Positions 5,960 to 62,660 of a stretch of DNA of 64,000 bases are shown in pieces (position 1 is the first letter of the stretch; each line of letters opens with the position of its first letter). A program made the translations under genes and the position numbers. The notes under the pieces were generated by a model. It saw only the letters and a list, made by a program, of their open reading frames with translations, was not told where the DNA came from and ran no database searches. Origin of the DNA: Sphagnum magellanicum (taxonomy: Eukaryota > Streptophyta > Sphagnopsida > Sphagnales > Sphagnaceae); contig CM038917.1 in assembly GCA_021904315.1 (NCBI GenBank), positions 11,826,041 through 11,890,040 of the forward strand, given 5' to 3'.

Positions 5960-8900
5960 TCAAACTTGATGGTCTTCGATAGGGGTGTGTCTGTTGCTCC
6001 CATTGTTCGACCTTCCTGCCATAAACAGTTCACCTAGCATCTTCTCCACCATTTCTGGGGAGTACTTCACATATTTATTGGGGAAGGAAGACTGGCTATC
6101 TAAAAAGGATCCAAAGTTCTGAAGGTAGGTTCTATATGCAGGAACCACAGCCTGCACAACAGATACCTGTACCCCAACTCTTAAGTCTTCCTCTGCTATG
6201 ATCCACTTTGACTGAGTCAGGCAGGCCTCCTCAAATGAGGCTGCAAATGATCTGAGGCGTTGCCGTACCAACTCACGTGCTGCTGATCTTCCACCTGAAG
6301 ACAATGATAGTCTGTCTCGGCCAAGATGAACCAGCACGGGTTTCCAGGCTTCCTTCTGAAACCTGAGGGCATGTTTCTCCACCTGGAAGTACACAAAATG
6401 GTCAACACAGGCTGATGTATGAGAAGCCGAGATCAACCTAAAGATACATTTTGTCAGACCAGACACAGGATATCACAATCAACAAGATCTTCTTCACTAG
6501 AGTAAGAGACCCTCTATGCCAATGCAGTTCCATGTCCAAGTATGGTGGTGGTCTGAGAGTCATAAACCACTTCAGATATGCATCATCTGTGTCTCTGTCA
6601 TTTAACCCCTTCCTGACTTCTATCAAACCCAGATGGAAATCAAAGAGGGTCTGCCCTTCAGACACACGTCTCTCCCTCTCTCCCTCCCTCTCTCTCTGTT
6701 GTAATCTTAAGTCCGTACTGAACACAAGAAGACAGTCACTTTGTCCCAGGACCATAATGCTTTACCTTCTGGCTAAGGTTTGAAAGCCAGGACTCGCCTA
6801 AGAGTGGTCCAAGCTCACTCATTTTGGCTCGGTTGCAAATGTAGTAAAGATTATTCATCATGAAGATGTGTCGCAAGGCAGTGTTGGAATGCTCCTTAGA
6901 CCGGGACTCCACCTGCTGCTCAAGTGCTTGCATGAACTGCAGAATCCACATAGATAGATCCATCTCCTGGAGCTGGTCCTCACTCCGCCAGCTGTGTTCA
7001 ATTCTCAAAACCTTGTTGATTGCGCTTGAGTATTCCTGTACCAGATACTTTAAGTAATTCACCACATAGCTGGAGAGTTGTGTAACCCCACCATCAAAAG
7101 CAAGAGGGTAGTTTTGCACTTCAATCCACCTGGCTATTTCCTGAAATGTTTTCGAAGCTCCATAAACAACCTGCAATTAGAATCAATAAGATTAGTGAAT
7201 GTTCCATGAAATCCTAATTTGCAGTCATCTTGTCAACAGCTAAGAGTCCATCTATGAGATTGCAGAGAAATTTCCACAACATTGCTTTGAAGCCAACATG
7301 ACAATATATGCGGTCATAACCTTCTGAGAGTTGCTTACAAAGTGTCAGACCTTCACATTCAACACAAACAGCAGTGAGCAACTGCCATGACTACCCACTG
7401 ACCTCATCAGCTACTGAAAATTAATTGTACAATAATCTGCCTGAAACAGCTAACTACAAACAGGCTTTTCATGCAGATGATGATTTATCCTCTGCACAGT
7501 GTGACATGTTTTCCTTTCCCATCTGACAGCAAGTTTTCCAGTCTGAATCAAGAAGCCTGATGTTGAATTTGCTGACCAATTATGCTAAAATACAGTAAAT
7601 TCACACCTGCTTCTGAAGTTCTCGATACCGGGAGCGAATACCATTCATCTCTCCATCAAACACGCGCAGTATACTTTTTGCGCATTTCTCCATGGCATCA
7701 AACATGTCAAGCAACCCACACAATTTTTCTGGGGCACGTTCACTACATGCAACAGCCTCCCCAAACTGCAAGAAAGCTATCATTCCAGCATGGGCCACCT
7801 TGCCCACGCACTCTGCCCACACAGGTTGACCCAGATCCTTGAACACTTGACATGCCAGTCGCCTTTCTCCAGCATACAACACCTTCACAGCTACCTCAAG
7901 ATGCTGCATCCAGAACCCTATCATATTCTGCAGCTCTTCTGACTCAACTCTATCAACTAGTTCAGGTGTTGAGTTCTTCAGATATTGCACCTGCAGGGCC
8001 TGCAATTGTACAAGCTTTCCACAAACAGCATCAGAAGTGTGAGGCATTGCACTCTTCTCATCAGAAGTAGGAGGCATTGCAATCTTATTCATCAGAAGTG
8101 CAAGGCATTGCACTTTTCTGCATCAGACGTAGGAGGCATTGCACTGTTATGTATCAGAAAAGAGAATTGTGCTCTTTGCCATCAGACGTGAGCATTGCAG
8201 TCTTCTGCATCAGAAGTGAGAATTGCACTCTTCTGCATCAGAAATGGGCATTGTGCTCTTCTGCATCAGTCATTACAAGCAACAAAACCAGTCCATCATT
8301 TGGGTAACCCTATAATTTGCTTGCCATGATGAGCAAATGGGGAAAAAGCACACCTGCAAGCTCAACCTGATGAGACTGCTTCGAGTCTCTTGATACATTT
8401 GCAAGCAAGCTCGATGCCGGTGATTGTTGCTGTCTGCTGCCACTCTTTCCAGAATAGCATGAAGCTTTTGCATCACGTCAGGTGCAAAAGATGGCTGCAA
8501 ATCCTTGTCATTGGTAGTGGTGGAGGAAGAATCATCTGTTGTGGTGGTTGTCTCTTCTGATGGCATGATTGCAGGTAGCCACATTACCACACCATGCTCT
8601 CCCACAAGACGCTTGAATTCTCCCTCCAACTGCCTTAATGCCATGTCCAACAATCCACCATCCAGCTCTGAACATGTTGTCCCACCTGTTCCAGCAGCTT
8701 GGCACACACATTCTCTCTCGCCCTCTCTCAGAAACTCAATATACCATTGCCGAGAGAGAAGGCAATCATGCTTGCAACTCTTCTATCTCCACAAGAAAAT
8801 GAAAGGAAAACAATCAGGGATCGAAGGAGAGGCTAGGAAGTGCGCACCTGCCTGCAAGCTGACAAGAGATTGTTGGAGATGGTGCAAGTGGTGAGAGTCT

Positions 8901-9460
8901 GTGTTGGAGCTTGCATCCAGCTCCAGATGCTTCACCGCCTCTTCCAAGCATCTCACACCGGCGGTGTACTTGTGCTTCAGATAGTCTCTGGCTTCTTCCA
9001 GCTGCATCACGGCTGCTAAGTAGCCGTCGAAATCCTCCTGTGGCTCCTTGCTCAGAATCCTCTCCAAGCCGTGCATCCCGTTGAACATCTTGAGCAATGA
9101 AGTGGCGGCCGTCATTGCCCGCTCGATCCTGCTGGACATTCCTCCCGTTGCATCTGCTTGCAGCTGTAAAGGAGCCAACGCCCGCTCCAGAGGAGCGTGA
9201 CGCTGTCTCAGCATGTGGAGTCGATTCTCCCAGCCGTTTATCTGCGTGCCTAACTCCTGTGTCTTCTCCACTGCCTTGTGGAGCTTCTGGCGCGCTGCCA
9301 GCAGACATTCGAGTTCGGTCTTGATCGGCCATGCTGCTGCTGCTGCTCCTCCTCCTCCTCCTCCACCACAGCTGCTTCTCGACTGCAATGCCATTTGCAA
9401 CGCTCGTGCACTCTCGAGCCCCATATTTGAGGCTTTCTCGACCTCCCCCCTATTGTCCAC
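5960..9460 (-). CDS. EXO70: EXO70 family exocyst subunit (five exons)
   Basis: Subunit of the exocyst, which tethers secretory vesicles to the plasma membrane; EXO70 contacts membrane phosphoinositides. Exons on the minus strand: 9460-8848; one ending at 8354 whose start is uncertain (about 8720-8782); 7999-7607; 7170-6766; 6382-5960. The last three junctions are phase 0 with CAG|GT-like sites. Family landmarks appear in order: an N-terminal helical region (LLKMFNGMHGLERIL, EDFDGYLAAVMQLEEA); the middle block (FWMQHLEVAVKVLYAGER, SPEKLCGLLDMFDAM as APEKLCGLLDMFDAM); FMMNNLYYICN; and the C-terminal KYVKYSPEMVEKMLGELF, all matching plant EXO70 consensus. The predicted length of about 640-670 residues is usual for the family. 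The ATG at 9460 is the first in frame; an in-frame Met 12 codons later is an alternative. A poly-Gly/poly-Ala run near residue 30 is unusual. Plant EXO70s form several subfamilies; I cannot place this one without a tree. Confidence 0.9.
8044..8275. repeat. Intronic minisatellite, about 28-31 bp unit, eight copies
   Basis: Eight head-to-tail copies of a unit like GCATTGCACTCTTCTGCATC followed by AGAAGTGAG fill most of the EXO70 intron between the exons ending at 8354 and starting at 7999. Early copies are about 31 bp and later copies 28 bp, with a few substitutions each. All frames through it are broken or lack motifs, so it is not read as exon. Confidence 0.85.
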
Positions 9461-10333
9461 TCGCTCATCCCTTGTCCTCCCCGCCCCCTTTCTCCTCTAC
9501 GCCTACTGCAAGTTCACGTCCTTCTCTCTTCCTACTTGCAGTTCTTCCCTTTCCGGTCTCCTCCTACCGCAATGCCCCCGGTTTCTGCATCGAAGAACGT
9601 TCTCCAAGGCTCTAATTCCCGGCTCTAGAACTTCTGTCCTTCCGAGGCAAGCTCTAAATATGTCCACCCGAGGATATGGAGACAAGCTCAACAGCCATCG
9701 CCTGTGAACAACCTCGGCAGTAAAAGCTCATCAGCTCGTCCGTTCTACTCCGCATCCTGTTTCATTACGAAACTCCCCTCTAACAACAATGCCGCACGCC
9801 AAAAAAACAAAGAAAGAAAACAGAGGAAAACTACAGATCAAGTCGGCGAACAACAGCTGCACAATGTCGCAACAAACGGACACGCTCATGATCAACAAAC
9901 ACCAGAAAACATAGAGAAAAAAGCTAGAAAAACTGCAGCAACTCGTTACCATAAAGAAGGCTACAACAAATAAACACAAGACACTTACGAGGTGAAGTTC
10001 GGGAAGAAGCGATACTAACATCTTTACCGACGTTACCACGATGCCGAGGGATCCACAGAGATGAAAGTCCTGTGAGTTGGGAGCAAAACAGAAAAAAAGC
10101 GAGAAGACGAGAGCAAGAAGATAGAAGAGAGATTCAGCTCAGCATTGTCGAAAACAGCTTGCACACAAGGCAGAGTTGCAGCAGGAGAGATTCAGGAAGT
10201 ACAAAAGTAATCATTCAAGAACGACATTTATTTATTTTTGTTTTTCTCTTGTGTTTCTATAGCGGAACTGGCAAAGATTCCAATGCAATGTGGGAAGAGC
10301 GGAAGAAGGAAGCGAGCGAGCGAGCGAGCGCAC

Positions 10334-36300: not shown

Positions 36301-39300
36301 GTGGGAAAGTCTGAATATCAACAAGCTGACTTAAAAGCTAGGGTTTCCTGTCAACGGTGAGCTTTTCCCAGCTCTTCAGCTACATGGGAGTTGAGACTTG
36401 TCAATATTCTGTTTCTCTGCAGATCACACCAGCGCATGACCCAAATGATTTTGAGGTGGGAAAGCGACACAATCTGGAGGTGATAAATATTTTCACTGAT
36501 GATGGAAAAATTAACAGCAATGGAGGCAAGGCTTATGAGGGCATGAAACGATTCGATGCTCGAGAGGCTGTTGTAAGGGATTTGGAAAAGAAGGTGAACC
36601 CTGAGCTCTGTTCTATTTACAATAGGGTGGATTCTCACAAGCTTACAAGATTCTAACTGGCATCCATTCTGAGTTGTTGTTCTTTTACCCACAATGCTGA
36701 AGATGGCTTGCAAAAATGTAATGACCTTGAGGAGGGCCATTGTTCTCTAGGCAGAATCATAATGCTAACGAGGAACTGGGTTTGGTTTCATTGTTTCTTG
36801 GGATTGGAAGGGCCTGTATAAAGGGGTTGTGGACAATGCCATGAGGCTGGGTATTTGCTCTAGAAGTGGTGATGTTATAGAGCCTATGATCAAGCCCCAA
36901 TGGTATGTTGTCATTTTCTGTACTGGCATATGCAATTTCATTTATGTCAGTTTGTGAGTTATGCTTAACAAGGACAGGATTTCATGCTTTCATGTACTTT
37001 AACCTCATTTTGGCCTTAAATATTAGCAATAGATGGAGATGCCAGCTGAAACCACAGTGCAACTCTCTGTCATCCTTCGAATTCTTAGTGCCTTTGAAGC
37101 AGTTAATCCAGAGGGCCACATAGAACTTAGATGTCAAAATTCTGCAGAATGGTTTGTCAACAAGAAACAGAGGAAATAATGTGATTATTTCACTTTGGGC
37201 AGGTATGTCGACTGCAAAGAAATGGCAAATGAAGCATGCAATGCAGTACGGGATGGTCGGCTTCAAATTATACCTAGCCAGTTTGAGGACACGTGGTTCA
37301 GGTTTCTATTGCTGTTCTTTCATTTGCCTTCTATTCACATATTGCTGCCTCAGAAACATTCCCATGTTACATTGGATATCAAGTTTGTTTCAAGTGTGAT
37401 ATTTCAGTAGACTCTGTTTTTTTGCAGGTGGTTGGAGAACATTCGAGATTGGTGTATTTCACGGCAGCTTTGGTGGGGTCACCAAGTGCCTGCATATTAC
37501 ATAACATTGGAGGATGATTTACTGACAGAAATGGGGGCTTACAATGATCATTGGGTTGTAGCCCATGATGAAAGTGAGGCTGAACGGATTGCAAAGGAGA
37601 AGTTTCCAGGGAAGAAGCTCAAAATCAACCAGGATCCTGATGTGCTGGACACCTGGTTCTCATCAGGATTATTCCCATTCTCAGTAATGGGGTGGCCTGA
37701 TGAGACTCCTGATCTTCGTGAATTTTATCCAACGTCACTTTTGGAGACTGGACATGATATTTTGTTCTTTTGGGTGGCACGTATGGTCATGCTGGGGATG
37801 AAACTAACAGGGAAATGCCCTTTCAAGCAGGTACTTCGAGACTCTGAGCCAACATGAGCTGGATTCTTGATGAATAAGTACACAGTTGTCAGAGAAATTC
37901 TTCTCAAGTCTCAGTAGAATGCTTCTTTAAGGTCTAAACATTCTGTTGACAGGATGCATTTCTGTCATTCTAAGCCTGAGCTGGTGTTTTGTACACTGGT
38001 GAACACATGGAGCAGATGTTGGGGCTATCCTCTTCTAGAGGATTCATGACACCTGTAAATTTTTGGTTGCAGGTGTTTTTGCATGCAATGGTGAGGGATG
38101 CTCATGGTCGCAAGATGTCAAAGTCACTTGGTAATGTTATAGATCCACTGGAAGTGATCAATGGGGTTACGCTACAGGATCTCCATAAACGCATTGAGCA
38201 GGGCAATCTTGATGCCCGTGAAGTTGAAAAAGCAAAGGCTGGTCAAGTTGCAGATTTCCCAAATGGGATAGCAGAATGTGGGGCAGACGCCTTACGCTTT
38301 GCTCTTGTGGCCTACACTGCTCAGGTATGGTTTTCACTATTGTTATTGTTATTTGTCAACTATCTGAGTGTTGTTTTGTTGATCACAAACAAACCTCAAC
38401 AGATGCATGGAGAAACTTGCATATATATGTAAATGAGGGGTGATGGTAGTGCCTAATGCTACATGCATTAGTGCTGTGGAAAGCACATGGTGGTGATGTG
38501 GGATTTGCTGGTTTTTTTCAGACAGTGAATATAAACCTTGACATTCTACGGGTAGTGGGGTATCGTCAATGGTGCAACAAGCTCTGGAATGTGATTCGTT
38601 TTGCAATGATGTATCTGGGGACAAGTTTTGAGCCTTCTTTGACTCTGGATGTGGTGTCCCTCCCTCTGAGCTGCAAGTGGATTCTTTCAGTCCTCAACAA
38701 GACTGTGGATAGAACCATAAAGGGATTGGAAAATTTTGAGTTCTCAGAATCTACTACAGCTTTGCATTCATGGTGGCTTTATCAACTTTGTGATGTCTTC
38801 ATCGAACTTATAAAACCAGTGATGCATGGAGATGATGAGGAATTGAAGAAGCAGACACGGGATACATTGTGGGTATGTCTAGACACCGGTTTGCGTTTGT
38901 TGCACCCTTTTATGCCGTTTTTAACAGAGGAGTTATGGCAACGGCTTCCTCAAAAACCAGGGGTTGTGAAAGCTAAGTCATCAATTATGGTAGCAGATTA
39001 CCCAACTGTCATCCAGGTTAGTTGGTTCCCTGCCCAGTCTTTTTCTCTTTATAAAATATATTTACTTGTCCGACCAAGTTCTGTAAGCTCTCCAGCAGAC
39101 TCTTCTGCTTGAAGTTACAATTGTTACTTTGAAGTGATTCTTTTTTCTTCCTTACATGGAAGTGTTGAAATGAACATGGAAAGTTGTAAGAGGTTATGGA
39201 AATATCCTGGTAGTTCTCTTCCAACAACTGGTTGAAGATCTTTCTGTAACCCAGTACAATGGATTATATTTTGTTTATTAATTTGGAAGATTTGGGTGGC

Positions 39301-47782: not shown

Positions 47783-49929
47783 CAGTAGAACCTATCTAAA
47801 ACAATAATGTTGGGACCGGGGGGTCGGTATTAATTAGAGAGGTTATTGAATTAGGCAAGGTCATACACTGGGCCATTTTAAGCCTCTTCTTATTACGGTA
47901 TAAATAGGGGTGGGGGGGGGGGGGGGGGTGCTTGGGGGAAGGGAGGGACAGGTTTGAAACATGCGGTTGGAACCTTCGCGAAGGTTGTTTCTCCGTCAAC
48001 ACCCCCCACACGCGCGCGTGCGTACTCGCATGCCCCCAACAACACACCATCCCGAAGAAAGGCGGGAAATACATGATGATGACGGACGAGGTCCGCATTG
48101 CTTTGTGCAACCACAAAAAATGCAACCCTACACTTTCACAAGTTGAGCTTCAGCACTAACTCAAGTCAAAACACAACATCGACGTCAGCCAGCTTATGAT
48201 TTCTCAGACCTTGAAGCGTTCAGCTGAGCTACTCAGATGTGATGAGGATCCCAACATTCAGAGCAAGTGCCAACGGACTGTCAAGTTCCCTACGATGGAA
48301 GAAACACTCGTTGAATGGATCCTGGCAAACCAAGAACACATCCCAATATCTGGGGATCTCATCAAGGAAAATGCCGCAAAGATCTTGGATCGCCTGCATC
48401 CTGGCCATGAACTGTTTGAGTTTTCAAACGGTTGGTTGGAAACATTCAAGCTTCGTCGCGGAATCAAGTCTTTCCGCCGTTTTGGTGAGAGTGGCTCCGT
48501 AGACATGAATGCCGTCAACCTAGCCTCCCAGGAATTTGCTAGTTGCTGGACCAGTATGCGTGGAATGACATCTACAATATGGATGAAACTAGCCTTTTCT
48601 TCCGCATGCAGGTTTGGGACATCTACTGTCTAATTGTGATCTGCGTCTAAGTCTTCACCTTTTTCTGATGCTGACCTTGCTAAACATTTTCAATTCCAGG
48701 CTGATAATTCCCTCGCAACAGAGCAACTTGAGGGGCGCAATCAGAACAAAGAGCGGCTCACCTTGGCTCTTTGCTGTAACAGAGACGATTCCGACAAGCT
48801 CCCCTTTTGGGTCATCGGAAAATACAAAAATCCCTATTGCTTCAAAAACATTAACCTTGGCAGCCTGGGCTACACTTATCGAAGCAATGCAAAGGCTTGG
48901 ATGATGCAGATCATCTTCTTAGAATGGTTGAACGCATTTGACCTTCATGTTGCCAACCGCAAAGTCCTTTTGGTTCTCAACAACTGCAGCGCACATGTCC
49001 CCCTTGAGCAACTCCTGCCCACATCCAACTGAGAAACACACGTGTCTTGTACCTTCCTCCCAATATGACGTCCAAGATCCAGCCCTGTGAAGCCGACATC
49101 AGCCGCAATTTTAAAGCCTATTACCACCGTCGCTTCAACTATCTCATGCTGCAGCGCCTTGAGGACGACATTGACCAAACACAAAAAATTAACGTGTTGC
49201 AGGCCATCTGGCTCGCTGTTCCTATCTGGGCAACAAATGTCAAGATTGCGACCATCTAAAACTGCTACAGGCACTGCCAAATCCGCACGATAAAGGGCCC
49301 TGGGCAGGCAACACCGACTTAGGAGGACCTCATTGACAAGGACGTCATTGACGAGCTAGAGTCGTAGATTACTAGGCTACACTACTAAAATTCGATGGAC
49401 ATTAAGAGCCTTCTCACCTATCCGGATGAGGATATTGTCTCCTACAGACCGACGATTGACGAAATCATTAATGGTCATCTCCCTCAGCTGGAAGGCACTC
49501 AGGCTAATGATGCTGACGAGGAGGATGACAATCAAGAAGTTGTTCTAGTGTCGACTAAGGAAGCCAACATGTTGTAGTCCCTAGAAACTTTTTGGCTCCA
49601 GCAAGACGGCGATAATGTTGTGTTTATCTCGTCATTGAGGCGCATGCAAGAAAAGGTCAGCATGTTTATGACCCGCCAAATGGTGCAGAAGAGCATCAAT
49701 GACTTTTTCTAGCTAGTTTAGGGAGGTTTGCAGCGATTTTGTAGCTATTTTTTTTTGTGTTTTGTAGGTTGTATTGAATTACAAAATTTTCGGGACTGCA
49801 AAAAGTTATTGAATATTGAATTAAAGAGTTTTATTGAATTGAGTATGGGCCCAACGTTGGGACCGGGTGCATATATTGAATTACAGAGGTTATTGAATTA
49901 AACAATATTGTTTTAGACATGTTCTACTG
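47783..49929 (+). mobile_element. Degenerate pogo/Tigger-type DNA transposon (2147 bp)
   Basis: Both ends carry terminal inverted repeats starting CAGTAGAAC and continuing TCTAAAACAATA after a short variable stretch, about 27 bp long with a few mismatches. The TIRs are flanked by TA on each side (47781-47782 and 49930-49931), the target-site duplication of the Tc1/mariner-pogo superfamily. Inside both termini is a roughly 45-bp direct repeat (GTTGGGACCGGG, then AGAGGTTATTGAATTA) near 47808-47855 and 49853-49900. The interior is clearly GC-richer than the host DNA and carries a damaged transposase. A G-homopolymer lies at 47909-47927. The element looks like an inactivated full-length copy. Confidence 0.9.
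48073..49712 (+). pseudogene. Tigger/jerky-like transposase pseudogene
   Basis: The N-terminal part has the two helix-turn-helix units of a CENP-B-type DNA-binding domain (TLSQVELQ, then VSQLMISQTLKRSAELL, then the HTH_CenpB part ending LRRGIKSFRRFGESGSVD). The DDE_1 domain follows: IYNMDETSLFFRMQ, then a GT-AG intron at 48612-48699, then ADNSLATEQLEGR, KLPFWVIGKYKNP, LLVLNNCSAHV, LPPNMTSKIQPCEAD and FNYLMLQRLEDD. Damage includes a TAA at 48157, a frameshift near 48540, further frameshifts near 49020-49050, and stops near 49258 and 49575. The second catalytic Asp is Asn (LNNCSAH for usual LDNCSAH). The acidic tail ends near 49712. It cannot make an active enzyme. Confidence 0.9.
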
Positions 49930-54656: not shown

Positions 54657-55115
54657 TCAACGGGCAATAGATGTCATATCTGAAGTCTTGGAATTGAATG
54701 AATAATTGTTGCTGGTCGGACTTGGTTTCTCCCACATAGAACTAAAAAGAATGTCTTTCATAAGAATAGAGAAATCTCCGTTCTCACGATGAAGAAGAAA
54801 CAGCAAGGCTAACACTTCCTCAGGAAGCCACAGAAAGAACCAAACAAGGGGAGACAAAAAACAAAACAAAAAACAAAAAACACATTAGCGGTATGAACCA
54901 AAGTCCCAGTCTCACACCTGTTCAGGGACCATCAACAGCAGTATGTATGATAGTGACTTAACTATCACAACTTCCCCACTGACTTCATCAGCTCCCTACA
55001 GTGGGTAAAGGCCGGTGACAAGCACCATCCTACGAACTGAGTTTCTGCTGCAAATCCGGAAGCAACGGGAAGACTCAGCCATACTACTGGCTAGCAACAG
55101 ACCCCACAACAAAGA
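54657..55115. other. Spacer between the unidentified ORF and the reverse transcriptase
   Basis: This holds a 70-codon minus-strand frame (54657-54869; LPEEVLALLFLLHRENGDFS) without a recognisable family, and an A-rich CAAAAAAC tract near 54858-54880. No retroelement terminus is recognised. Confidence 0.35.
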
Positions 55116-56530
55116 CTAGACAAAGAAACAAAGAAAGACAGAAAGGGAAAAGAACAGGGAAGGACTAAGAACAAGTGGGCTTACAGGAAGCTCCCCACTT
55201 ACATGACCCGAAGCAAAATCATTCTGAAAATGCCAAAAGCGGAAATTCCGAACAGGAATTTTTCGAACCAACCCTCTAGTTCTCTTAAGAAGAACTTTAA
55301 AAGGGTAGCCTTTTGCCTTCAGAAAGACAATAAGACTGACCATCTGGAAGACAAAAAACTTCTTACAACTACAAAGTCTCAAGAAACTGTAAAATTGACT
55401 ATTGATAACTCCCAGCTTCGCAGTCATTGAGATATTGGAATGAACATGAGGCATTCTAATCGTTTCAATACCTGCATACTCTGGTTGAGAGCGTTTGTCA
55501 AAAATGTCACAGGATAAACCTTGAGGACTCTGGCTCACAGTTAGATCCAAGAAATTACAAGAGAAGCCTTTAGATGTACAAGTCAACTTGCAAGAGGTTT
55601 TTGGGTATATGCCGCTACCAAAAGAGTCTTGGTTAAGGTACATGAAGTTCTCAAAATCTGGAAAATTAGGAACAAAAAGATCATCCACAAACCTGCGAAC
55701 CAAGGACAAACTATGAAGCACAACAGGACAAGTGTTACTCTTCAAGAGACGCTTAATGAAATCAAACTCATAGGTGAAGAGATAGAAATTAGCCAAATAG
55801 ACCGCACAATTTGTACCCATGGGGATACCAATGCATTGTCTATAAACACCCTGACCAAAACAAAGAAACAAATTGTCTAATAAGAAGTCCAGCCAAGAGA
55901 TCAAATCTGAAGCCTCTGCAACTTTGAAGCTATGAAGATTTTCAAACAAATTGATCTCTGCTTTATTTTTCAGCCACAAAAACCTAAAGTTCAAAGCAGT
56001 TTTTTGAACCATCAAAAACTTAAAACGATGAAGCTTCAGCATCCGATTAAACACTTTATTTATCAGAACTCTCATACGAGCTTTTAGATCCACTAGGTCA
56101 ATGTTAGTGTATAGAGTTGAGAAATCAAAAGACTGCAACAGAAGTGGGGAAGCTTTATCAATTTCAGATCTTGAACAATTAAGATTATTTATTACCTCCA
56201 CCACTCCTGTAGAGTCATTGAGAATCCAACTACTATCACAAGGAACACCTGCTTTTTTGAGTTTAGACACCCAAAGGTCATTGACTGTAGGAAACATAGC
56301 TTTGAAGAAAGAACACAGCCACTTAGAAACATCAGTCAGAGAACTAGAGCTGGCTGCACAGATAAATCTAGGTTTAATTGGATTTTTATGAAACTTCCAA
56401 ACTGCACAAAGAAACAGGAGACGAGGGCCACACTTAACACCTTTAAAATTATGAGCCTTATTAAAAGAGAGATGAGAACTTAGAACATCAGATTGGGCAA
56501 GATTGGAGACTACATAAAAAGAAAGAAAGA
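55116..56530 (-). mobile_element. Penelope-like retroelement reverse transcriptase (5'-truncated or partial)
   Basis: A minus-strand frame is open from about 56530 to the TAA at 55116; its first ATG is at 56297, but the homologous sequence starts earlier (FLCAVWKFHKNPIKPRF). RT landmarks follow in order: KNPIKPRFICAASSSS, SFDFSTLYTNID (motif A with catalytic Asp), GIPMGTNCAVYLANFYLFTYE (motif B area), RRFVDDLFVPNF (motif C, FVDD with both Asp present), and a thumb-like C-terminus (KAKGYPFKVLLKR). The GIPMGTNC block with a following (Y/F)xDD box is typical of Penelope-like elements, including the Chlamys/Naiad group known from green lineages. I see no GIY-YIG endonuclease, so the element is partial or its endonuclease is displaced. 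The RT core itself has no stop. It begins where the NB-ARC gene ends. Confidence 0.75.
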
Positions 56531-59500
56531 ATATCTTTTCTTCCTTTCACTCCTCCCTCATCCACAAGAATTGTTGGCAAATCAATTGGCTCCAATTTCG
56601 TTGCCACAAATTGTCTGACCAAATGGTTTATCTTCAAATAACGAGTTAAGAGCTTGCCATTCAAAAAAAAAGGACTAGTTACTTCCACAAGCCCTTTTGT
56701 TATAAGATCTCCCACTACCATATTGAAGCAATCAACCATCCCTGGAGGTTGTAAACAACGCCATATGACCTCCACCATACTAGCTAGAGCATCCCAAGAA
56801 AAGAGTGATATCACTCGAAGCACATTTTCCATTCCAACATAGTAAGGCTTTTCTTGCCCATAGTAAAGACTCATACTAATTGCCGCATATAGGCCATCAG
56901 ATTTGTAATCACTTGGAATGAAACGATTTTGATAACCATAGTGTTTGAATTCTGTTTCCACCTTCTCCCATGCTTCAGGAGTTTTTGGGACTTCAGACAA
57001 AATTGAACCAAGAATTTTCACAGCCAACAAACATCCACTGCACTTCTCCAAAAGACGTTTTGCTATGCCCTACATCACAAACATTGAATCATATTTAGTG
57101 CATACAAGTGCAACATCATCTTGACCCTAAATAATGTTTCAAAATGGAAGCCCTATATTTTTGTACCTACTCTTATTATTTCAATCTCCATGTGTAATAG
57201 TAAATACTACCCCATGCAATGAAGAACAAATTTTCATGGATTGTCAAGCCAACAACATGAATCCAACTTTGGTCATGCTTCATTCAATGTGGGCATGATG
57301 CTAACAAACAGTATCTATTATCTACTCCATTGGCGTTGAACCACACAAAAGGATGTTGCACTAATTACCTCACAGCCTGGAGGAAACCTTGTTTGATGGG
57401 GATCATTGGCAGCTTTACTTGCAAGAAGCCTTGTAGCAATGTCATTGTTGCTACTCTCATCAATCTTGATACGAATGGCAGGCAACTCATCCAACTTAAA
57501 CCGTGATGTTATCACCACCTTGCAAAATTTATCACTCGGGAGAGGTGATTGATAAATTGATTTCTCATTCCACACATCATCAATGAACAATAACCATGGG
57601 CCATGCAAAGTATCCAATTTTTTTTGAATGCTTGGCTGAACATCCTCAATGGACAAGTATTTGAACCCATGTATCTGCACACAATAGTTTCCAAGCATGA
57701 CAAAAGGTTGAATAAACACATTTTTGTAGCAATGAATTCCTTGGCACTTGTGTATAAAGTCATTTAAAATATGTACGTAAATATTTTTTATTTGCATATC
57801 TTTTAATGACAAACCAACCAAAATTTTAGGATTCAATTTAACGATAAGAAATAGTACAATACTTTGCGGTCTTCAGGTATGAGGTTCCTCAATAATTGTT
57901 TTTGGGCTGCTAATATATTGTTGCAATCACTGCCATATTCCATTTGAAAAATTCCTCCAGGAAAATGATCATGCAAATCCTTGGCATGTCGTTGGAATAG
58001 TACATATTCCACAACAGCAGTCTTTCCACAACCAAAATTTCCATGCAATATGATGTATTGTAATCCCTCTTCCTTCAGGCCTTCCAAAAGCTTTTGAATG
58101 TCCTCTTTAGGTTCAACAAAAAAATGAAATTGCCATCCTGGCCGTCGAATAGATATTGGTTGTCCCTGCATAAGAAATCATCAAGTTCACCATTGATCCA
58201 AATATAGACACACTATGCAAGGCATTTAAAAATTGATAATTTGCCTACACATTTGTATTGCCTTGCATCATCCTACATCTAACACGATCATAAGTGTTAT
58301 GTAGATATACTACAATATCCATCAATTTTTCATGTTGTCAAACAGCACTAACCAAACTAAAATTGATTGACAATCAATAGTCAGCAAATCCTCTCATTGT
58401 TTCCAAAACTTAAAGGGCATTCAAGCTAACCAACATCAACCCCATAGAAGTAAAAGATTAACTAATTAAAAGGAGTTTAACAATGAACCCAGAAATTGTG
58501 ATCACTACCAATTTCACTTCATAGGCTATGTGTGTCTTCACCTCTTGTACACAAATTTTTATGGTGTCCAAAAGCTTGGAGTAACTTGGATGCTGCTTGC
58601 TAGGTGGTTTGCAGACATCGAAATGATGACATCCTTCTAGTGTATAATAGTTGTCCCTTGCTGATCTCCGTGCTCCTGGCTTCTCCACCAACTTAAACCC
58701 CTGTCATTTGAATCACATTCAGTGAAAGTTAATGACTTAACCATGGAAAATACAAATGGGTTGCCCCCTGTAGCTTTCTTAAACAATAGGATGTTTGTTA
58801 AATCAACAAGGATTTCTATATTTCAATCCAAAGAACATGCATCTAGTTATTGACAAAACATTTGTTTTGTCAATACTTACAATGCCCTTTATAGTTGTGC
58901 TTTCAAGGAAAGCAAACACATTGATGGACAATTCACTTGCTATCTTTTCAAAAGAATTGGACAAGTCCTCCATCCTGGAATCATGTGCTTTCAGATTCTT
59001 CATGAACCCTGCCCACTTGACACCATCAGCCGAAGAAGTTGAGCTGAATTGGGTGTAGTACGATTCTAACTCTGAACCAGTATGGGGAACTGCATAAAAT
59101 ACAACACCCTTGAGATTTTTCAAAAACTTATTAGCTGATGTCGCAACACTCCTATCAAGGCCATTTCTTGGTGTGCTGTGGGCCCTTTTATATGCCTCTT
59201 CCATCAAACTCTTGATCACAAGGCCCCCAAAACAATGGCCTATCATGATGAACCCACATCGTTGGCCTACGTTCCACGTGCTACTGCAAAGCCCAAAATG
59301 AACTCAAAACACCCATATTAGAGTCTTCACAATCTATATTTTTGAATAGCTAGGAATAACTTACTTGTCTGAATTTGAGAAACTGCACAAACTAAGTAAC
59401 AGTTTCCAGCTCTAATTCTACTCCTAAAGTCAACTTACTCTTTGAAGGCCAAAACCATTTTGTTTAGCAAATTTAGCCATCACAGTTTAACAAATCTATC

Positions 59501-60634
59501 TTTGGATATTTTTGTGAAGGTTCAATTCCCATCCACTCTCTCATCCACTCACCATTAAGTATTTGCTAGATGCATGCAATGTAACTTGCACCTTTGCAAC
59601 AAACCCTACAACAAACTGTTTTGATTTGTGGCAACTTGGTGTGGTCAAATGGGGAGGCCGAAACCCCTCCCTCATACATGACTAGGAGGCTCTTCTTTAT
59701 TTCAATCAAGGTGCACATAGTGCAAAACAAACCTGGAAACAAGAATTTGCAGGATGTTTTTTGCAATCTCGGAGACATCGTCAGTATTGCCTTGGTTGCC
59801 ACATTGCATGGCACATGAGTCATATGATAGTGCAAGCACACGCACACGCACATTTACTTCACTCAAGTCTTGTGGTAGCCAAGTTTGAACCCAACAATCA
59901 TGGGGGTCATTGCACGTCACCCAAGTTGTCTTCCAGGGTTGCATTTCACCTGGCCTGTGTGTACCATGAAATAAGACAACATCGCAGTTGGTGGATTGGA
60001 CAACATCTTCAGGGGGCCAGAGTTGATGAACTGGTTGATCCTGCTTTACAAAAGCATAATCAAAATGTTGATGGATTAGTAAAATTAATTGCAATGTGCG
60101 ATATTCTTTTGTGGTGCAATGAATTTCAATTTTGTATTAAAGAGTGGACTGTTATCACAAAGGATTCATAAGAATTCATTGAAAAAAGAAATGAAAAAAA
60201 CCCTTGATATTTCAAGTTTGTCAAGGCCATATGTGTGATGGTTCTTTGGTTAGTCCAAGCACAAAAAAGAAACACTTGTTGATGCTCTACTACACCCATA
60301 ACATGGTGTGCTCAATTCAAGTCAATTCAAATTAATTTTCGTAAGTGTGAAATGAGCATGCTGTGAAACTTTGACCATAACTTTCATAAAATAAGCAATT
60401 TACTTGATTGGGTCAACTCAAATCAAGTTAAATCTGTCTAGTAGAAACCTTATACATATTATCTAGCACATATACAAGAGTTACTTGATTCTTTCATTGA
60501 CCTACAGCAATTCCAAAAGAAAAAGAACTCACATCTTGAAATAAAGTTGGAGGTGCCTTTGGAGGAAAAAGATGCCTCGTAGATTTTCCCAAGAAGTCAT
60601 TGAACCAATTCTTCTTCTTCTTCTTATTTCTCAT
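56488..60634 (-). CDS. Alpha/beta-hydrolase-NB-ARC protein (HNL-class immune receptor, no LRR seen)
   Basis: Seven minus-strand exons join in phase to exactly 721 codons: 60634-60533, 60040-59733, 59283-58881, 58700-58542, 58165-57863, 57674-57369, 57069-56488. Exon 1 encodes a Lys-rich start (MRNKKKKKNWFNDFLG). Residues about 35-324 form a SERAC1-like alpha/beta-hydrolase: CDVVLFHG (oxyanion region, about 53-60), a nucleophile elbow GHCFGGLVIKS (152-162, Cys154 where Ser is usual), and a late His in EGCHHFDVCKPPSKQHPSY (296/297). Residues about 325-720 form an NB-ARC: P-loop GNFGCGKT (366-373), kinase-2 LLFIDDVW (453-460), VVITSRF (RNBS-B-like), GLPL-like CSGCLLAVKILG, a winged-helix region, and INHLVRQ (674-680) in place of MHDLVRQ. 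The product is probably a nucleotide-switched intracellular sensor. It stops about 40 residues after the MHD position, so no LRR is encoded. Hydrolase-NBS fusions (HNL) are known from liverworts and other non-flowering plants. Confidence 0.88.
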
Positions 60635-60741: not shown

Positions 60742-61633
60742 TTATATATATTAAAAGACGTCGGGATGACAAATGAACCCGCCCCTGAACCCGCCCGTCC
60801 CGTCATCCGTCCCTGTCGTCCCTGTGTCCATCCGTCCGGTCGTCCATGCGGATGGACACCCTGGAAGCTCCGAGGTTGCCGGCTGCACACCATCCCTCTA
60901 CTGAGTCTTAAGACACAGTGTGTGTGAGTACATGTGTGCATTTACTATCTCCGTGCCTTTTTCGCGCTCACGCACGCTCTCTCTCCCTCCGCACTGTGTA
61001 GGCTCTGAGAATGTGCACTGCAACAGGAGTGGTGCGATTTTCGACGTAACCTTTTTTGGGCGAAATTTAAAATGAGATTTTCAATAGCCGTAAAAATCTC
61101 ATTTTACTTTCGCCAAAAAACCTCAATTTCGACGCAGCCTTTTTTCGGCGAAATTTAAATGATATTTTTATGAAAAAAATAAACGCATAAAAATAGAAAA
61201 CAAATGAAGATAGAAAAAATAAAAATAAAAAAAATAAAAACCTGAAACAAACATTTTTTTTTTAAAATTTTTTTAAAAACACACCAAAACTATAAAAAAG
61301 GAATGGAAACAAATGAAACAAGGAAAGAGAAATACAATAAAAAAAATTTTAAGAAAAAAAAAATTACTAAAACGAAGGAACCAAATAAAGAGTAGAAAAG
61401 AAGAAAAAATAAAACTTATAATAATTTTAAAAAACCCTACTTGAAAAAGAATGAAGTGTGTCTTCTTTCTTCAAACTTCAAACTTGCATCCAAATAAACA
61501 AAAATACAAAAATGAAAAAAAAACACATAAAAATATAAAAGTTAAAAGATAAAAGTTTTTAAAAAAAACTAAAACATGAACCAAACATTGTTGAAATAAC
61601 ACACCTGTGCATTAGACACAGGGTTCACACTAG
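60742..61633 (+). mobile_element. Helitron-like element, copy B
   Basis: The 5' end TTATATATATTAAAAGACG resembles the TC-initiated end of the Helitron at 661-914, but no TC precedes it here. The 3' end is CACACTAG followed by T, with a 6-bp-stem hairpin CCTGTG...CACAGG (61604-61622) eight bases upstream, as expected for a Helitron. The first 190 bp are GC-rich (CCCGCCCGTCCCGTCATCCG and similar); the rest is AT-rich with a long internal hairpin. No Rep/helicase is encoded. Its left end lies about 108 bp upstream of the ATG of the hydrolase-NB-ARC gene. Confidence 0.62.
61052..61120. repeat. Long inverted repeat (about 28-bp arms)
   Basis: TTTTTTGGGCGAAATTTAAA plus ATGAGATTTT (61052-61081) faces its near-complement at 61093-61120 across an 11-base loop; the arms differ by a 2-base gap and one or two mismatches. 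A second TTTTTTCGGCGAAATTTAAA word follows at 61140-61159. Confidence 0.8.
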
Positions 61634-62025
61634 TTATATATATTAAAAGACGTCGGGATGACAAATGAAGCCGCCCCTGAACCCGCCCGTCCCGTCATCC
61701 GTCCCCGTCGTCCCTCTGTCCATCCGTCTGGACGATGTTGCCGGCTGCACACCATCCGTTAACTGAGTCTGACACTGCAGGTTTCTGCCGACCAAGATTG
61801 GAAAGGAAATAAACCAGGAATGGCCCTCATCATCATCACCACCACCACCACCACCACCACCTGCTGGGAGAGTGCATAAGGATTTTGAGGTTGGGTCCCA
61901 GCAAGACGGAGGGGCAGTGGCGGACCAGGGACGAAGTAGGCTGAGCGCGCGCGTTGTAGACGACCTTATTGTTTTCTTCAAGAGCGTCAGAGGTTTATCC
62001 TTTCTCCACTGTCATTTTGTACCAA

Positions 62026-62485: not shown

Positions 62486-62660
62486 TCCCCTGACTCCGTG
62501 CGTCCCGTCATCCTCCCTCTGTCCATCCGTCCGGTCGTCCATGCGGATGGACATCCTGGAAGCTCCGAGGTTGCCGGCTGCACGCCATCCCCCTGCTGAG
62601 TCTGACACTGCAGCTTTCTGCCCACCAAGAATGGGAAGGAAATAAACCAGGAATGAAATA
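62486..62660 (+). repeat. Third copy of the Helitron GC-rich head segment
   Basis: This matches copy B at 60805-60900 (GTCCATCCGTCCGGTCGTCC, GCTCCGAGGTTGCCGGCTGC) and copy C at 61750-61825 (TGACACTGCAG, GGAAATAAACCAGGAATG). It lacks the TATATATATTAAAAG start, so it is an internal duplicate or a nested, truncated element. Confidence 0.8.

Follow-up and report, generated by a model that had tools for sequence, protein, structure and literature searches.

A retroelement-truncated hydrolase–NB-ARC gene in Sphagnum magellanicum

The 64,000-nucleotide stretch of Sphagnum magellanicum DNA analysed here (the window; C11:11826041-11890040 of a searched genome of 438,994,042 bases in 31 contigs) carries on its minus strand a gene that joins an N-terminal alpha/beta-hydrolase to an NB-ARC domain and runs into an inserted retroelement (Table 1). 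Its exons, joined across six GT-AG introns of phases 0,2,0,0,0,0, give 2163 nt encoding 720 amino acids, and the host coding part comprises 712 codons across all seven exons with neither a stop nor a frameshift. This structure had been proposed in a first-pass annotation of the sequence, and its seven exons, six introns, preserved phase and total length were all reproduced. A donor for exon 4 lying 33 nt further on (2196-nt model) was dropped, since paralogs favour the one that gives 2163 nt. The hydrolase is interrupted by one phase-2 intron and the NB-ARC by two further introns; introns 3 and 4 are phase 0, and intron 4 (58541-58166, 376 nt) separates the hydrolase exactly from the NB-ARC. 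The NB-ARC identity of exons 5-7 is certain, with a Pfam match to PF00931 at E 4.3e-19 and 69.2 bits against a cut-off of 23.5 in a run on the 2196-nt model. The host-derived part of exon 7 carries the motifs CLLAV and INHLVR, which we take to be GLPL-like and MHD-like, respectively.

The 5' end is less secure. Counterparts of exon 1 in two paralogs on C12 (L039 and L043) are preceded by an AG and have no ATG, and their similarity to the window continues past 60634 for a few more codons on the upstream side (EVT); a further counterpart, in L040, is weaker (E 0.002). The start at 60634 is therefore doubtful: this ATG may be an internal Met, and a 5' exon is possibly absent from the model. Immediately upstream of the gene lie several copies of a GC-rich repeat unit (~90-100 nt, pairs 88-95% alike). 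The array stops ~108 nt from the putative start; its unit may be a small mobile element lying in the promoter or in the first intron. Neither an Rfam nor a tRNA scan of the window returned a match.

Table 1 Features of the hydrolase–NB-ARC gene and its surroundings (window coordinates)
Feature	Position	Strand	Basis or remark
Exon 1 (34 aa, as in the first-pass annotation; start codon uncertain)	60533..60634	-	Homologous exon in C12 paralogs L039/L043, GTGAGT donor
Exon 2, alpha/beta-hydrolase N-terminal part	59733..60040	-	In-phase GT at equivalent donor position in 7/7 paralog regions
Exon 3, hydrolase core: nucleophile elbow GHCFGG (Cys154), putative acid Glu264	58881..59283	-	Paralog alignments
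Exon 4, hydrolase end, putative catalytic His297	58542..58700	-	Paralog comparison
Exon 5, NB-ARC with P-loop GNFGCGKT	57863..58165	-	Pfam and paralogs
Exon 6, NB-ARC kinase-2 LLFIDDVW and ITSR	57369..57674	-	Pfam and paralogs
Exon 7 as modelled	56488..57069	-	Host-derived part 56515..57069 (185 codons), remainder from element
Last 8 codons and stop of modelled gene, from inserted element	56488..56514	-	Stop at 56490-56488
Target-site duplication copy 1, TTCTTTTTA	56515..56523	-	9 bp
5'-truncated retroelement, 1763 nt, reverse-transcriptase-like frame (stop-to-stop 55116-56546)	54752..56514	-	Copy comparison, duplication
Target-site duplication copy 2, TTCTTTTTA	54743..54751	-	9 bp
Receptor coding remnant past insert: 22 in-frame codons, then TGA	54677..54742	-	Paralog homology
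GC-rich repeat copies	60742-60842, 61634-61734, 60816-60908, 62511-62603, 61733-61822, 62566-62655		Pairwise likeness

Paralogs join the two domains in one gene

A protein search of the genome, in which the best 61 of 811 candidates were scored, gave at least 69 exon matches. Six are the window's own; the others form clusters on C12 (9.52-9.64 Mb) and on C2 (26.2-26.6 Mb) or lie at sites on C16, C17, C9, C5 and C6. All seven paralog regions examined have hydrolase and NB-ARC exons on one strand and in identical order. For six of these, models beginning at exon 2 have phases 2,0,0,0,0 at the equivalent introns and 48.0 to 60.5% identity to the window protein; one of the six, L044, has one in-frame stop and, in its model, lacks an AG ahead of exon 2. 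Exons 3-4 of the remaining region (L045, C9 15.7 Mb) contain stops, and this region is not among the six. Between the window gene and L043 the ratio of nonsynonymous to synonymous substitution rates (dN/dS) is 0.41 over 664 codons (hydrolase 0.38, NB-ARC 0.44).

The exact fall of intron 4 between the domains would also suit a hydrolase gene and a distinct NB-ARC gene that had been wrongly joined. Against this stand the shared exon order of the seven paralog regions and the arrangement of such exons across the genome. The best 125 of 380 NB-ARC candidates were compared with the best 150 of 332 hydrolase exon candidates, so that counts are lower bounds: at least 75 of the 125 NB-ARC matches have a listed hydrolase exon within 4 kb upstream on the same strand, none has one downstream and none has one on the other strand. 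The phase-0 boundary intron, moreover, is found both in the window gene's own group (group C, below) and in group B, in which one gene was read. The co-linear paralogs and the upstream pairing of hydrolase exons led us to reject the two-gene reading, which we regard as very improbable. The domain order given in the first-pass annotation, with both domains in one gene, is upheld by the six modelled paralogs; its description of the class as rare is wrong for this genome, given the number of NB-ARC matches that pair with a hydrolase exon.

A retroelement supplies the stop codon

DNA from ~56516 onward matches at least 39 other places in the genome at 90-98% identity (best 40 of 999 candidates scored). 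Among the copies listed, 30 of 39 start at query 183-185, which is window 56518-56516, and the match stops between 54754 and 54738 in nine copies. Eight of nine copies compared share further sequence upstream; the window copy of the element is therefore 5'-truncated. Its reverse-transcriptase-like frame gave no Pfam match at E<=1. Judged by eye, its motifs may resemble those of Penelope-like elements.

When the insert was excised and its flanks joined, the alignments to five of the six paralogs extended further (end position 668 to 681 for L043, 674 to 692 for L040, 668 to 676 for L041, 701 to 704 for L042 and 669 to 674 for L044); for L039 the end moved from 688 to 685, with different gaps. 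E-values also dropped on joining, partly owing to a smaller database. Judged from these comparisons and from the 9-bp duplication on either side of the insert, the stop at 56490-56488 is not the gene's own and the element is inserted into the last exon. The insertion cuts the coding sequence, whose distal part had already decayed or was shorter beforehand: copies on C12 and C16 continue ~80-130 residues past the point where the window remnant reaches its TGA. The first-pass annotation, from which this truncation was absent, had described a Met start and a single stop. Such a frame is present, but it is not an intact frame from the gene's own start to its own stop, as the start is put in doubt by the C12 paralogs and the stop comes from the element.

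The 720-residue product, with its eight element-derived end residues, might be expressed as an adaptor or decoy, that is, as a functional truncated receptor comparable to the short TIR-NBS proteins of flowering plants. The uninterrupted 712 host codons in seven exons, the dN/dS of 0.41 and the stop provided by the element all speak for such a protein, which we consider possible, if doubtful. The constraint may be older than the insertion, and the nearest copies of the element are 98% similar to it, so there was perhaps little time for decay.

The hydrolase head has a conserved Cys elbow

The nucleophile elbow of the window protein, GHCFGG, has Cys where Ser is usual. Cys can serve as nucleophile in alpha/beta-hydrolases. 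GHCFGG is conserved in the group C family together with a PHxGS motif, one Glu and one His, and Cys154, Glu264 and His297 are invariant across six aligned hydrolases; the His is kept in 36 of 36 aligned rows, several of which repeat one genomic place. Of 20 group-C rows, 18 have Cys at the elbow and two (L045 and L082) have Ser; Ser also occupies this position in all eight group-A and all 13 group-B rows of the hydrolase tree, as well as in five other rows. Six group-A loci (L061, L062, L064-L067, all Ser) and loci repeating one genomic place were left out of this tree. With the nucleophile column included, the tree implies one Ser/Cys change. With the column masked it implies two, and a single Cys clade is not rejected in the masked-column tree (p-AU 0.194). 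The N-terminal alpha/beta-hydrolase is recognised by its conserved elbow, Glu and His, its Pfam matches being sub-threshold, and we infer from these residues that the group C head may be a Cys-catalysed enzyme.

An NCBIfam scan of six members gave a match for one, to a single unrelated model (0.027). A scan of prokaryotes with the hydrolase alignment, using two peptide patterns, matched 94 stretches, none of which was confirmed. Two Ser hydrolases, L075 (C6:4406499) and L083 (C18:442886), adjoin group C in the tree (95/89). None of the best 125 NB-ARC matches lies within 4 kb downstream of either; they are perhaps stand-alone relatives, or have an NB-ARC outside the matches listed.

A divergent NB-ARC and a tail without recognisable leucine-rich repeats

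Among solved structures the best match of the window NB-ARC as a single sequence is APAF-1 (1.8e-10), an animal protein with a CARD head and a WD40 tail, and the best plant match is At5g66900 (2.5e-5). Searching with the family profile brought the two nearly level (APAF-1 6e-10, plant 1.6e-9). The first-pass annotation had named best NB-ARC matches outside the plant nucleotide-binding leucine-rich repeat receptors (NLRs) as evidence against its reading; the single sequence formally gives that result, and the family profile leaves little between the two. In an NB-ARC tree within the genome, the seven group-C rows are separated, with support of 100/100 but on long branches, from the other seven rows (six of CC/RPW8 type, one of TIR type).

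The last exons of L039, L041 and L042 gave no leucine-rich repeat (LRR) match at E<=1 and no Pfam repeat match, while LRR matches were found in L001, L004, L006 (below cut-off), L007 and L088. The L042 frame continues 933 residues beyond the NB-ARC and off the region examined; phmmer with this tail returned a single match, at 0.98. Built from the L041, L044 and L042 tails, a profile of 639 positions has as its best match PF16 (E 0.079), which we take to be an armadillo-repeat protein. This match is the one hint at the tail fold, and 'armadillo-like' is a guess.

These features bear on whether the gene is a canonical HNL (hydrolase-NBS-LRR; PMC3352924) of the Marchantia type, in which only the window copy has lost its LRRs. 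As in the liverwort and moss proteins, an N-terminal alpha/beta-hydrolase is followed by an NB-ARC, with phase-0 introns both within the hydrolase and between it and the NB-ARC (PMC3352924; PMC11218826). In contrast, the tails of three relatives lack an LRR match, the elbow carries Cys, the hydrolase has a phase-2 intron, and the NB-ARC is split by two additional introns and is placed away from the seven other NB-ARCs in the tree within the genome (100/100, although with long branches); the window copy is, in addition, truncated by the retroelement. We therefore consider a canonical HNL unlikely, and the HNL assignment of the first-pass annotation does not hold for the three tails scanned.

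One hydrolase module on three NB-ARC backbones

Hydrolase receptors in this genome fall in at least three groups with differing NB-ARCs. Group B, represented by L088 (C8:23037000-23044500, read as one gene), has hydrolase exons homologous to those of group C and identical intron phases. Judged by eye, three of its introns (phase 2 in the hydrolase, phase 0 after exon 3 and phase 0 at the domain boundary) are positioned as in group C, and in L057 exon 3 likewise ends in phase 0. Unlike group C, L088 has a Ser elbow (AYSFGG), a 937-aa open LRR frame and an NB-ARC of TIR-NLR type with a match to WHD_ROQ1, which we take to be the class of Roq1. Group A (L007) also has a homologous hydrolase, with 39.7% identity over exon 3. 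It differs from group C in its GHSFGG elbow with Ser, its LRRs and its NB-ARC, which is of CC/RPW8 type and groups with the RPW8-matching genes L001 and L004 (85/87). Because the hydrolases of groups A, B and C are homologous but their NB-ARCs differ, and because the intron positions of L088 match those of group C, one hydrolase module is, on the sequences compared, present on three NB-ARC backbones.

Within group B, the elbow AYSFGG occurs in 11 of 13 hydrolases (L088, L068-L074, L077, L079, L084), with Ala-Tyr for the usual Gly-His and the Ser kept; the other two elbows are GYSFGG (L076) and AHSFGG (L078).

Other genes in the window

An EXO70 exocyst gene lies at 5960-9496 on the minus strand (Exo70_C 4.9e-30, Exo70_N 4.2e-8). 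On the plus strand are a class I tRNA synthetase gene at 37980-39112 (tRNA-synt_1 2.6e-14, Anticodon_1 1e-30), perhaps valyl as guessed by eye, and a Tc5-type transposase DNA-binding domain at 48160-48633 (9.8e-15).

Discussion

The window gene is probably a member of a bryophyte hydrolase–NB-ARC receptor-like family without recognisable LRRs, with a divergent NB-ARC in three exons, that was cut short by a 5'-truncated retroelement. Several observations weigh against this interpretation. The hydrolase falls under Pfam cut-offs (DUF676 at E 0.0047 for the window protein; Abhydrolase_6 at 0.00045 and 0.00024 for L041 and L042). Searched as a profile against solved structures, the hydrolase gave one match, glutamate carboxypeptidase 2, at E 0.77. 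The NB-ARC as a single sequence is closest to APAF-1, and the MHD-like motif is variable among paralogs. Recent paralog pairs are less constrained (dN/dS 0.86 for L039-L043, 0.68 for L041-L044). Past the insert the sequence ends after 22 codons, and the tail was perhaps shorter or decayed before the insertion; the host coding part is free of stops and frameshifts, and the copy is perhaps too young to judge dead or alive.

If the family operates as NLRs do, the C-terminal part of intact members would act as the sensor, and exchange of ADP for ATP at the NB-ARC would lead to oligomerisation. This would cluster the hydrolase heads and turn on hydrolysis of an ester, thioester or lipid substrate, and the action of the clustered heads would lead to defence or cell death. 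An immune role of the family and any residual activity of the window copy are likewise putative. Having lost its sensor, this copy may be a pseudogene in decay or may serve as a partner protein consisting of head and switch, the pseudogene being somewhat more likely.

HNLs were described in 2012 from Marchantia, and none were found then in mosses (PMC3352924). Hydrolase NLRs were later found in Sphagnum and Ceratodon, including a minor Sphagnum group within the CC/RPW8 clade (PMC11218826) that would fit group A; both genera are also named as holders of hydrolase NLRs elsewhere (PMC10952240), and ferns are reported to lack them (PMC12512272). In Nicotiana, the heads of two Marchantia hydrolase NLRs caused ion leakage and responses resembling cell death (PMC11218826), and a review describes the precise biochemical function of hydrolase heads as little known (PMC10952240). 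Published work on bryophytes already covers hydrolase NLRs as well as NB-ARC proteins whose C-terminal repeats are of other kinds; in the passages searched, which excluded supplementary data, a group of hydrolases with a Cys elbow was not described. Fungal NLRs with SesB-like lipase heads similarly place a lipase- or hydrolase-type head on a nucleotide-binding domain with a non-LRR C-terminus, a likeness by description only, and SesB is the only head found on all three fungal nucleotide-binding types (PMC12258605), as one hydrolase is here on three NB-ARC types.

Tentatively, group C could represent a separate plant NLR class, marked by a switch of the nucleophile from Ser to Cys (Cys-Glu-His, with thioesterase-, acyltransferase- or protease-like chemistry), an APAF-1-like NB-ARC and an armadillo-like sensor replacing LRRs; within a single moss lineage, one hydrolase module would have been transferred to three NB-ARC backbones. 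The truncation of the window copy is by itself an ordinary event. With Ser and Cys heads occurring naturally in different groups of a single genome, the mode of action of hydrolase heads can be put to the test: should catalysis be important, cell death would be expected to disappear in each group when its nucleophile is changed (Ser-to-Ala or Cys-to-Ala), and the groups may also differ in substrate preference. One head with three NB-ARC partners would be a case of head swapping, like that of SesB in fungi.

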